A DNA stretch of 33,091 bases from Nitrospira sp. GTDB taxonomy: Bacteria > Nitrospirota > Nitrospiria > Nitrospirales > Nitrospiraceae. A program made the position numbers and the translations under genes. Shown piece after piece: positions 11,035 to 14,749 of this stretch. The notes under the pieces were generated by a model. The model saw nothing but the letters and a program-made list of their open reading frames with translations. It had not been told where the DNA came from and ran no database searches. Every line of letters starts with the position of its first letter. The first letter of the stretch is position 1. Where the stretch lies: positions 1-33,091 of the forward strand of contig JABFSU010000099.1 in NCBI GenBank assembly GCA_013140455.1, read 5' to 3'.

Positions 11035-11043
11035 TGGTATAAT
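11035..11043 (+). promoter_or_regulatory. Extended -10 promoter of the two-component operon
   Basis: TGGTATAAT at 11035-11043 is a perfect -10 hexamer with the TGn extension. The -35 region is weak, as is usual for extended -10 promoters. Transcription would begin near 11050, only about 15 bases before the response regulator ATG at 11065, leaving just room for the ribosome site GGAG at 11056-11059. Confidence 0.6.
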
Positions 11044-11064: not shown

Positions 11065-11736
11065 ATGCGTGTGCTCGTTGTCGAAGACGAAACGAAGGTC
11101 GGCTGTTTCATCAAGCGCGCGCTTGAGGAAGAAAGCTATGCCGTCGATCTCTGTGAAGACGGGGCCAAGGGCCTCGAGATGGCGCTGGCGACCAATTACG
11201 ATTTGATCGTCGTGGATCTCATGTTGCCGTCGATGTCGGGGATGGACATTCTCAAAGCTGTGCGGCGTGAACGGATTCAAACGCCGGTGATGATTCTGAC
11301 GGCGCAGTCCCAGGTGGATCAACGGGTGAAGGGCCTCGATGCCGGCGCCGACGATTATCTCACCAAGCCGTTTGCCATCGATGAACTGCTGGCCCGTGTC
11401 CGGGCGCTGTTGCGCCGGGGGGCGACCGAGAGTCCCGGCATTCTGCAGATCGACGATCTGGTGCTGAATCCCGCGACGCGTGAAGTCGCGCGGGGCGGGC
11501 AGCGCATTGAGCTCACCCTGAAAGAATATGCGCTGTTGGAATATCTCATGCGGCATACCGGACGGGTGCTGACGAGGCCGATGATTTCGGAACACGTCTG
11601 GAACCAGGATTTCGACACCTTCACCAATGTCATCGACGTCTACGTCAATTATCTCCGCAACAAGATCGACCGGGGCCGGTCGAAGAAACTCATCCATACG
11701 ATCCGCGGCAGCGGATACATGCTGAAAGTCGACTGA
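11065..11736 (+). CDS. OmpR/PhoB-family response regulator
   Basis: The 223-residue protein is a two-domain transcription regulator. The receiver domain spans about 1-115, with acidic residues Glu7 and Asp8, phosphoacceptor Asp51 (VVDLMLP), Thr79 and Lys101 (TKPF). The winged-helix DNA-binding domain of the OmpR type spans about 128-223, with LTLKEYALLEYL, the recognition-helix region TNVIDVYVNYLRNKID and the closing RGSGYML hairpin. It is closest in style to the CusR/CopR/MprA-like group. GGAG at 11056-11059 lies 5 bases before the ATG. Its stop overlaps the kinase ATG by one base, so the two are translationally coupled. Probable targets include degP, because three 11-bp direct repeats of the form bound by this family lie just before that gene. 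Confidence 0.93.
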   Translation: MRVLVVEDETKVGCFIKRALEEESYAVDLCEDGAKGLEMALATNYDLIVVDLMLPSMSGMDILKAVRRERIQTPVMILTAQSQVDQRVKGLDAGADDYLTKPFAIDELLARVRALLRRGATESPGILQIDDLVLNPATREVARGGQRIELTLKEYALLEYLMRHTGRVLTRPMISEHVWNQDFDTFTNVIDVYVNYLRNKIDRGRSKKLIHTIRGSGYMLKVD

Positions 11737-13139
11737 TGCCACTGCGACTTCGGTTGACGCTCTGGTACGGGAGTACGCTGGCTCTGGTGCTCATCGTATT
11801 CTCCGTGGTCTTGTACAATGTGACCGCGCGGAGTCTGCGCGATGCGGTGGATCAATCGTTAGAAGAGACCGCCAACACAGCCGTCCGGTCGCTGGAAGAG
11901 CGGGGATTCCTTCCGCTCATCGACGAAGAGGAATTACTCTCGCAATTTCCCGAACTCGCCCGGATCGACAAGTTCTTCCAGATCTTCAGCCCGTCCGGGA
12001 CGATCACGCTCCGTTCTCCCAATATCAAGCAGCATGAAGTCCCGCTCAGCCGCACGGCGCTCGAAACGACGTTCAGCGGGAAATCCATTTTTGAATCGGC
12101 GAAGTATCCGAAGGAGCCGCCGCTCCGGCTCGTGTCCGTGCCGATCATGTATCGCGGAACCCTGCTCTACATTGTACAAGTCGGGACGTCGATGGAATCG
12201 ATCGAAGACACGTTGCGCCGGCTGCTGCTGGTGTTGCTGGTGACGATGCCGATTGCGCTGGCGGTGTCACTGGCCAGCGGATGGTTTCTGGCTGGCCGCG
12301 CCCTACGTCCGGTTGACGCGATCACGCTGGCGGCCCAGCGCATCGCCGCCGGCGATCTCAGTCAGCGGTTGACGGTCTCGACCTCTCCCGACGAGATCGG
12401 GCGCCTGGCCAGTATGTTCAACGACATGATCGGCCGGCTCGATGCGTCCTTCCGGCAGATTCGTCAATTTACCAGCGACGCGTCCCACGAACTCCGGACT
12501 CCGTTGACTGTCATGAAGGGAGAGACGGAGTTGGTCCTCCGGCGCCCTCGCCCGTTAGGTGACTACCAATCCGTGCTCGAAAGCAATTTAGAAGAAATCG
12601 ATCGCATGACGCGCATCGTCGATGAGTTGCTGTTCCTCTCCCGCGCCGACATGGGAGAGGTCAGGATGGAGACGCTGCCGGTCGGCCTGGAATCGCTCGT
12701 CGAAGACATCCACCGGCAGGCGACGCTGCTCGGACAGGATCGCAACATCGCCGTCACGCTTGGCACGGTGCAGCCGGCTGTTGTCCAGGGTGACGAACTC
12801 CGGCTGCGAGAGTTGCTGCTGAATTTGGTGGAGAATGCGATCAAGTACTCTCATCCCAACGGGAAGGTTGAGATCTCGCTCGTTACGGAAGGATCGCGCG
12901 CGCGCTTGTCGGTCAGGGATCAAGGGATCGGCATTGCGCCCGATGATCTATCCCGCATCTTCCATCGTTTCTTCAGGACCGATGGTGCCCGGGCCCATAC
13001 GAAGAAGGGTACAGGCCTTGGACTCGCGATTTGTACCTGGATTGCCGAGTCCCACAAGGGCCGTATTGACGTGACGAGTGAGCCCGGTGCCGGTTCGACG
13101 TTTACGGTCACACTCCCCCTGGCAGCCCCTTCCGCTTAA
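11736..13139 (+). CDS. Membrane sensor histidine kinase
   Basis: The 467-residue kinase is the partner of the regulator with which it overlaps by one base. Order of parts: first membrane helix about 9-30; periplasmic sensor domain about 31-162; second helix about 163-188; HAMP linker about 189-240; dimerisation domain with phosphoacceptor His251 in DASHELRTPL; and the ATPase domain. The ATPase domain has the N box (LLNLVENAIKYSH), G1 (DQGIGI), F box (HRFFR) and G2 (GTGLGL). All catalytic boxes are intact. The periplasmic domain is moderate in size and contains no histidine- or cysteine-rich metal-binding stretch that I can see, so the signal is unknown. The gene is followed closely by degP, which suggests an envelope-stress input. 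Confidence 0.93.
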   Translation: MPLRLRLTLWYGSTLALVLIVFSVVLYNVTARSLRDAVDQSLEETANTAVRSLEERGFLPLIDEEELLSQFPELARIDKFFQIFSPSGTITLRSPNIKQHEVPLSRTALETTFSGKSIFESAKYPKEPPLRLVSVPIMYRGTLLYIVQVGTSMESIEDTLRRLLLVLLVTMPIALAVSLASGWFLAGRALRPVDAITLAAQRIAAGDLSQRLTVSTSPDEIGRLASMFNDMIGRLDASFRQIRQFTSDASHELRTPLTVMKGETELVLRRPRPLGDYQSVLESNLEEIDRMTRIVDELLFLSRADMGEVRMETLPVGLESLVEDIHRQATLLGQDRNIAVTLGTVQPAVVQGDELRLRELLLNLVENAIKYSHPNGKVEISLVTEGSRARLSVRDQGIGIAPDDLSRIFHRFFRTDGARAHTKKGTGLGLAICTWIAESHKGRIDVTSEPGAGSTFTVTLPLAAPSA

Positions 13140-13142
13140 CGA

Positions 13143-13175
13143 CTTCTAATTCGCTCTTAATCCCCTTCTCATCAC
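13143..13175 (+). promoter_or_regulatory. Three tandem 11-bp direct repeats, likely response-regulator operator
   Basis: Starting 3 bases after the kinase stop, three 11-base units follow without gaps: CTTCTAATTCG (13143-13153), CTCTTAATCCC (13154-13164) and CTTCTCATCAC (13165-13175). C1, T2, T5, A7 and T8 are identical in all three. OmpR/PhoB-family regulators bind head-to-tail 11-bp repeats, and the PhoB box consists of CTGTCAT units with this period. The array ends 74 bases before the degP ATG. If TATATC at 13195-13200 is the -10, the third repeat lies over the -35 position. Confidence 0.6.
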
Positions 13176-13190
13176 CGGCTGTTACGGTCA

Positions 13191-13208
13191 CTCGTATATC
13201 AATACGAG
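13191..13208. repeat. 7-bp inverted repeat in the degP leader/promoter
   Basis: CTCGTAT (13191-13197) and ATACGAG (13202-13208) are exact inverted copies around a 4-base centre. The repeat overlaps the candidate -10 TATATC (13195-13200) and lies about 42 bases before the degP ATG. It could be a second operator or an mRNA hairpin near the 5' end. Confidence 0.5.
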
Positions 13209-13249
13209 ACAGATTTGTTCCCTGGAATCATTGTCACGAGGAGGAAGCC

Positions 13250-14749
13250 ATGAAGAAGTCGGTTCAAAAGGCGGTCGTCGCGAGTCTTGCCATCGCCGCG
13301 GTGGGAGCGGTGCTTATCTGGGGCGGTCAATCGTTGCCCTCTTCCCATGCTTCCAGCGGTATCCAGCCTGCGGCAACCACCGTGGCGCTGCCGATCGCCC
13401 CGGCGGCGAATGGGTTTACGGATGTGGCCAAGGCGGTGACACCGGCCGTGGTCAACATTACGACGGTCACGGGAGAGAAAGTCTCCGATGGGCGGAAGAT
13501 CCCTGATGAATTACGCGATCGGATGGAAGAATTTTTTGGCGGGCCTGGCAGCCCTCGTGGATTCCGCGGGCCACAAGGTCCCGGTGAGCCTCGTGGCCAC
13601 CGTGGTGGCGGCCAGGGTTCCGGAGTGATTGTCTCTCAGGACGGCTATGTGTTGACCAATAACCATGTGATCGAAGGCGCGCAGGAAGTCACGGTCACAT
13701 TGCCCGACAAACGTGAATTCAAGGGCACAATTGTCGGAACCGATCCCAAGACGGATTTGGCGGTGGTGAAGATCGATGGACAGAATCTTCCGACGGTCGT
13801 CTGGGGTGATGCCGGCAAGCTGCAAGTCGGTGAGTATGTGTTGGCGGTCGGGAATCCCTTCGGATTAAATTCGACGGTGACGCTTGGCATCGTGAGCGCG
13901 CTGGGTCGCGGCCGGATGGGTATCACGCAGTACGAAGACTTCATTCAGACGGATGCGGCCATCAATCCTGGAAATTCAGGCGGCGCTTTGGTGAATACGC
14001 GCGGAGAATTAGTCGGGATCAATACGGCCATCTTCTCGCAGACCGGCGGATATCAGGGCGTGGGGTTTGCCGTACCGACCAGCATGGGCAAGCCGATCTA
14101 TGAAAGCCTGATCAAGACCGGGAAGGTCGTGCGTGGATACCTGGGTGTCGGGATTCAGGATCTCAGCCAGGATCTCGCCAAATCATTCGGGATTAAGCAT
14201 GCAAAGGGTGCCTTGGTCAGTGACGTGAAGGAAGAGGGACCGGCCGATCAGGCTGGTCTGAAGCAGGGCGATGTGATTATCGCGTATCAAGGCGCACCCG
14301 TTGAGGATGCGGTGGCTCTCCAGCGCCTGGTGACCAGAACAGGGGTTGGGATGAAGGTGCCGGTCAAGGTGATCCGTGACGGCCATGAGAAGGACCTCAC
14401 GGTGACGATCGGGGAACAGTTGGATACGACGAAGGTCGCGAAAGCCGAAGCCGGTGAAGCGGACTACGCCTTTGCCGGAGTGGCTGTCCAGGACCTGGAT
14501 CGGGAGACTGCGAAGGAATTGGGCATCAAGGGCAAGGCGCAGGGAGTTATCGTGACGGGCGTCGAGCCGGAGAGCGGCGCTGAGAAGGCCGGCTTGATGA
14601 CGGGTGATGTCATTCGAGAGATCAACCGCCAGTCGGTCAAGTCGGTCAAGGAGTTCGAGAAGGCCTCATCCGCCATCAGGAAGGGTGACCACGTCCTGAT
14701 CTTGATCAATCGCCATGGCAATGCGTTATTTCTGACCGCGAAAGTCTAG
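13250..14749 (+). CDS. degP: Periplasmic serine protease/chaperone DegP (HtrA family)
   Basis: The 499-residue protein degrades or refolds damaged envelope proteins. It has an N-terminal hydrophobic signal or anchor (about 7-25). A trypsin-like domain follows, with the complete triad His139 (TNNHVI), Asp169 (KTDLAV) and Ser243 (GNSGGAL). Two PDZ domains lie at about 295-385 and 410-495, which is the DegP/DegQ/MucD arrangement rather than the single-PDZ DegS form. A Gly/Pro/Arg-rich insert at about 97-123 precedes the catalytic core, at the place of the regulatory LA loop. AGGAGGA at 13240-13246 gives a strong ribosome site. The gene directly follows the two-component pair and carries a candidate regulator-binding array in its promoter, so it is probably induced by that system. 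Confidence 0.94.
   Translation: MKKSVQKAVVASLAIAAVGAVLIWGGQSLPSSHASSGIQPAATTVALPIAPAANGFTDVAKAVTPAVVNITTVTGEKVSDGRKIPDELRDRMEEFFGGPGSPRGFRGPQGPGEPRGHRGGGQGSGVIVSQDGYVLTNNHVIEGAQEVTVTLPDKREFKGTIVGTDPKTDLAVVKIDGQNLPTVVWGDAGKLQVGEYVLAVGNPFGLNSTVTLGIVSALGRGRMGITQYEDFIQTDAAINPGNSGGALVNTRGELVGINTAIFSQTGGYQGVGFAVPTSMGKPIYESLIKTGKVVRGYLGVGIQDLSQDLAKSFGIKHAKGALVSDVKEEGPADQAGLKQGDVIIAYQGAPVEDAVALQRLVTRTGVGMKVPVKVIRDGHEKDLTVTIGEQLDTTKVAKAEAGEADYAFAGVAVQDLDRETAKELGIKGKAQGVIVTGVEPESGAEKAGLMTGDVIREINRQSVKSVKEFEKASSAIRKGDHVLILINRHGNALFLTAKV

Follow-up and report, generated by a model that had tools for sequence, protein, structure and literature searches.

Response regulators of the OmpR family bind as dimers to half-sites arranged head-to-tail, and in E. 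coli the envelope-stress two-component system CpxAR controls degP, the CpxR box being made up of GTAAA repeats. Knowledge of gene regulation in Nitrospira, a genus of important nitrite oxidisers, seems to be limited. In the CiaRH-htrA system of Streptococcus pneumoniae, the CiaR repeat is NTTAAG-N5-TTTAAG with the -10 at distance ten (PMC3091779), and the PmrA/BasR box has been described as CTTAAT-N5-CCTAAG or CTTAAG-N5-NTTAAT (PMC3973317). Two-component systems that directly control an HtrA-type protease are also found in Actinobacteria (MprAB-pepD/htrA; PMC12113857) and in Streptomyces (CutRS/CssRS-htrA; PMC12802291).

The window analysed here, that is, the whole stretch of 33,091 nucleotides from Nitrospira sp., carries a regulator gene, a kinase gene and degP on the same strand, with a block of 11-bp units ahead of the protease gene (Table 1). 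This block is probably, with an estimated probability of about 0.82, an operator devoted to envelope proteostasis, at which the adjacent CusR/CopR-like regulator would act as a class-II activator. The literature searched contained no account of such a circuit in Nitrospira.

Table 1. Features of the regulator-kinase-degP locus, numbered from the first base of the window.
Feature	Position	Strand	Sequence	Basis or remark
Extended -10 promoter of the regulator-kinase operon	11035..11043	+	TGGTATAAT	Conserved in nearly all aligned genus loci
Response regulator gene	11065..11736	+		Receiver and winged-helix domains, OmpR/PhoB family; PF00072 and PF00486 above gathering score
Histidine kinase gene	11736..13139	+		Pfam HAMP, HisKA and HATPase_c; TIGR01386 at 293.7 bits against a cutoff of 292.55 (marginal)
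Fourth (upstream) 11-bp unit	13132..13142	+	CCGCTTAACGA	Core T and A fixed, also without an adjacent kinase gene
Unit 1	13143..13153	+	CTTCTAATTCG	Half-site TCTAAT, 13145-13150
Unit 2	13154..13164	+	CTCTTAATCCC	Half-site CTTAAT, 13156-13161
Unit 3	13165..13175	+	CTTCTCATCAC	Half-site TCTCAT, 13167-13172
Extended -10 element of degP	13180..13188	+	TGTTACGGT	Hexamer TACGGT, 13183-13188; TGnTAnnnT kept across the genus, other genera and other targets
Ribosome-binding site of degP	13238..13245	+	GAGGAGGA	Sequence; AGGAGG-like in leaders of relatives
degP/htrA, Do-family serine protease with two PDZ domains	13250..14749	+		TIGR02037 at 495.7 bits against a cutoff of 416; Pfam trypsin-like and PDZ domains

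The NCBIfam model nearest to the regulator was cztR_silR_copR (TIGR01387), with a score of 263.2 bits that falls below the cutoff of 279.2, and the named relatives of this protein at 92-94% identity were Nitrospira MAGs, which assigns the window to Nitrospira or a close relative within Nitrospirales. Its recognition helix, VIDVYVNYLRNKI, was identical in the 70 readable orthologues of the genus (70/70). The promoter of the regulator-kinase operon shows a conserved TTTGGTATAATC of the form TGnTATAAT and lacks the 11-bp box; autoregulation through the box was considered and rejected, as none of the genus loci has an array ahead of the regulator, where the conserved extended -10 was found instead. 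In 67 genus orthologues of the kinase, the sensor region (residues 31-150) was at least as conserved as the catalytic domain, with a mean conservation of 0.95 for residues 61-90 versus 0.77 for residues 353-467. Cysteine is absent from this region, in which a single histidine (His100) is nearly invariant. Sensors are not usually so well conserved, which points to a partner that is fixed, either a protein or a lipid.

A triple 11-bp repeat at 13143-13175 had been reported in the first-pass annotation and was confirmed, C1, T2, T5, A7 and T8 being identical in all three units. The array lies three bases past the kinase stop codon and about 75 bases ahead of the degP ATG, and the grammar of the window can be written as TCTAAT-N5-CTTAAT-N5-TCTCAT-N10-TACGGT. 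Triple repeats of this kind arise by chance in a sequence the size of the window: 10 start positions with five invariant columns in three 11-mers were counted over its whole length, with about 17 expected under a first-order Markov model, and five of these 10 were registers of the 13143-13175 site itself. Inside the 110-bp kinase-degP gap, the chance of such a triple repeat was about 0.006, and 11 was the sole period among 6 to 20 giving at least four invariant columns. Judged from the window sequence alone, the repeat would be weak evidence; comparison with other genomes makes the array compelling.

This comparison included 71 informative loci of the same genus, the window among them, 55 with degP and 16 without it. 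The box was located upstream of degP in all 55 loci with degP near the kinase gene, and it was absent from 15 of the 16 loci without degP, the sixteenth (L082) having a decayed box in which the two TTAAT of the others read TTGAT and TGAAT. The corresponding Fisher p value, 2e-14, is descriptive because related genomes are not independent. Alignment of the 55 distinct genus sequences revealed a fixed or near-fixed core at 11-bp steps, (T/C)TAAT, (T/C)TAATC and T.TCAT, in which TAAT, TAATC and TCAT were invariant or nearly so while the remainder of the leader drifts. Nine loci carry an insertion (110-1637 bp) between kinase stop codon and box, with the box still close to degP, and in all 55 loci the box starts 82-168 bp ahead of the first start codon in the DegP frame, which argues that the operator belongs to degP and not to the kinase transcript. 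The reading of the array as a chance repeat, or as a constraint of the 3' end of the kinase mRNA with no role for degP, was refuted by these comparative data (the conservation, the displacement by insertions and the presence of the box at unlinked genes) and is given practically no weight. Of the insertions themselves (L078, L107, L108, L110 and L127-L131), some open with sequence resembling TAGCAGGCTGTT, which would suit a mobile or REP-like element with a preference for the spot between kinase and box.

The repeats had been expected to persist in relatives keeping the gene order, and they did so in every same-genus case, as well as in other genera and families. This conservation supports the initial proposal of a direct-repeat operator of the OmpR/PhoB type that would join the adjacent regulator to degP. 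As regards the extent of the element, the three units described at first are all present, but the element is larger, with a fourth half-site and an extended -10 promoter as well. In the fourth half-site a T.A is placed exactly 11 bp ahead of the first TAA; it reads TTAA at 13136-13139, and the kinase stop codon TAA (13137-13139) falls within it. These positions formed no part of any search pattern, and the T and the A were fixed in 8/8 distinct displaced (insertion-bearing) sequences, in 5/5 sequences of family f3 without an adjacent kinase gene, and in 8/8 sequences of a CxxC-protein set described below (which includes the unassigned locus L293). At these sites no stop codon explains the T and the A. 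At the sites ahead of PDZ-protein genes they were kept in only 3-4 of 6 sequences.

The -10 hexamer of degP, TAnnnT, begins exactly 10 nt past TCTCAT and is preceded by TGn, as in the extended -10 form. Column counts over the 55 genus sequences were T 52, G 53, T 55, A 54 and last T 42, and the final T was kept in none of the five family-f3 sequences. A scan for consensus promoters gave no sigma-70-type site between 10900 and 14900 because it demands a -35 hexamer. A perfect 7-bp hairpin (CTCGTAT-ATCA-ATACGAG, 13191-13208) is present near the transcript start expected around 13195, in close relatives only; it was rejected as a functional element, the folding of the leader being ordinary (z -0.8) and the hairpin arms not being kept in more distant relatives.

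It is proposed that the phosphorylated regulator would bind head-to-tail to the tandem 11-bp half-sites that precede degP. The promoter-nearest half-site would occupy the -35 position, ending 10 nt before the extended -10 TGnTAnnnT, so that a promoter weak on its own would gain the housekeeping RNA polymerase through recruitment by the regulator, and the DegP level would rise in response to an envelope signal sensed by the kinase. Class II activation by the adjacent regulator is proposed because of the CiaR/PmrA-like grammar and the similar recognition helix. The two conserved blocks TCTCAT and TGnTA could instead represent a promoter for an alternative sigma factor of the ECF type, and envelope-protease genes in other bacteria are often ECF sigma targets; however, the locus has three to four elements at a strict 11-bp period with only 10 nt from the last one to TAnnnT, and the promoter of the regulator operon shares the TGnTATAAT form without the box, which makes this reading very improbable. 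Repression of degP by the adjacent regulator, which would cover the promoter until the kinase signal relieves it, would suit an array that abuts the degP promoter, and CutR, for its part, represses htrB by way of a site that lies 17 bp ahead of the htrB start (PMC12802291). Nevertheless, the -10 hexamer TACGGT is weak and has no -35, and the distance of 10 nt from the end of the last half-site to the -10 is that of CiaR-activated promoters, so repression is considered unlikely and activation is preferred.

The distribution of the box was determined across the order and the phylum, with counts that are not independent because the genomes are related. The box plus TnnTA pattern was found in 127 of 196 genomes and in 25 of 35 genera of Nitrospirales; the reversed-pattern control gave one match in the 196 genomes, and about 195 genomes of the phylum outside Nitrospirales yielded three weak matches only. 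The order kinase-box-DegP was kept outside the genus, both within its family and in family f2, with kinase identities of 62-84%. In family f3 the DegP genes that follow the box are 52-58% identical, and in several cases the regulator lies elsewhere: box-degP and regulator are 0.5 Mb apart on one contig in G093 (3.61 Mb versus 3.10 Mb), and the regulator gene is on other contigs than box-degP in G087 and G158.

Box and regulator were observed to co-occur, the box being present in 122 of 173 genomes with the regulator versus 5 of 23 without it; these five are drafts in 50-410 contigs. In 51 genomes of the order (genera g22 and g30) the regulator is kept but no box was detected. Within the genus, fifteen members (L063-L068, L070-L075, L076, L077 and L079) have lost degP behind the kinase and have no box there; they keep the regulator at more than 90% identity, and two of them, G032 and G040, keep the box at a PDZ gene. 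From the 51 genomes of the order and the fifteen genus members it follows that the regulator must have other or drifted targets. These fifteen members and the five genomes with a box and no detected regulator also fit a real OmpR-family operator that is bound by another response regulator, such as a paralogue of about 50% identity, which does exist (G000 contig 30). On the other hand, the regulator is linked to the box across genera, the invariant recognition helix goes with the invariant half-site, and both regulator and box are missing from G006, G026 and G048 although G026 and G048 retain the paralogue. Binding by another regulator is judged improbable, if slightly less so than repression, and the adjacent regulator remains the preferred candidate.

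In its own genome the box had a single site, both at up to three mismatches and with a looser pattern, which led to rejection of a large regulon there; degP alone carries it, and it is the single boxed gene among seven DegP-type homologues. When the pattern was used without its promoter part, second sites were found in several genomes. In eight loci the gene behind the box encodes a small exported protein with a PDZ domain, and the spacing to the TA is again 10 nt; the PDZ homologue in the genome of the window (61% identical) has no box. In another eight loci, from other genera (L286-L289, L291, L292, L297 and L302, in two families of the order), it lies about 100-150 bp ahead of the gene for a small double-CxxC protein with the motif CxKCxGxMVxEW...WRCxNCG, whose best Pfam match, DUF7563, was below cutoff. 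No reading frame for the CxxC protein was found beside the box of L293 (G179). The PDZ and CxxC genes are non-homologous, yet they have the same box and the same 10-nt spacing. A two-mismatch box is also present in L142 (G046 contig 70, 9378-9407), with TATAGT 10 nt on, before a reading frame of about 120 amino acids that is a possible further target. It is rather probable that these sites form part of an order-wide envelope-proteostasis regulon of Nitrospirales, so far undescribed, in which one two-component system would act through a four-half-site operator on one dedicated DegP of seven and, in various lineages, on PDZ and CxxC proteins, with the kinase stop codon as part of the operator wherever the two are adjacent.

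Among the known systems, CpxR-degP had been suggested as the model, with a different repeat. The proposed regulator-protease link is supported and the difference in repeat holds, but the closest analogue is CiaR-htrA, or the PmrA box (hexamer-N5-hexamer). A CpxR site was rejected, with no GTAAA on either strand in 13140-13249 and a score of the regulator against the CpxR model NF008199 of 153 bits versus a cutoff of 341. The locus and CiaRH-htrA share an OmpR-family regulator, a hexamer-N5-hexamer direct repeat, a -10 hexamer 10 nt on and an HtrA target; the CiaR recognition helix VVEVYVSKVRKKL is similar to VIDVYVNYLRNKI of the Nitrospira regulator, and the operon-type spacing of CiaR is found here as CTTAAT-N5-TCTCAT-N10-TACGGT. 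However, the CiaR half-site TTTAAG has an invariant final G and the Nitrospira half-sites end in T, so this is not a CiaR site; moreover, Nitrospira has three to four half-sites instead of two, an extended -10 TG, a regulator gene normally beside degP and a sensor of another family, in a different phylum. The PmrA box has a near-identical half-site (CTTAAT, that of unit 2) and a 5-bp spacer, and BasR is among the closest solved relatives of the regulator, but PmrA drives lipid-A modification genes, the Nitrospira element has extra half-sites, and its regulator scores far below the PmrA model (202 bits against a cutoff of 330). MprAB and CutRS/CssRS differ by their motifs (TKTTAAGAAM and TAWATAAA, respectively), and MprA regulates its own promoter, whereas the Nitrospira box was not seen upstream of the regulator. 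CusRS/CzcRS/CopRS are the nearest sequence families of the regulator and the kinase, but the regulator falls below the family cutoff, there is no metal-efflux gene next door and the sensor lacks cysteine; the site of CusR is a palindrome and those of Nitrospira are direct repeats, and the targets identified seem to point to envelope proteostasis. From sequence alone, the analysis offers a candidate operator with its promoter and a small regulon, all specific and testable, for the quality control of envelope proteins throughout the order. The Nitrospira box probably represents one more case of a stress circuit whose type is known, and would join the recurrent theme of two-component systems wired directly to HtrA-type proteases, as in CiaRH, CssRS/CutRS, MprAB and CpxAR.
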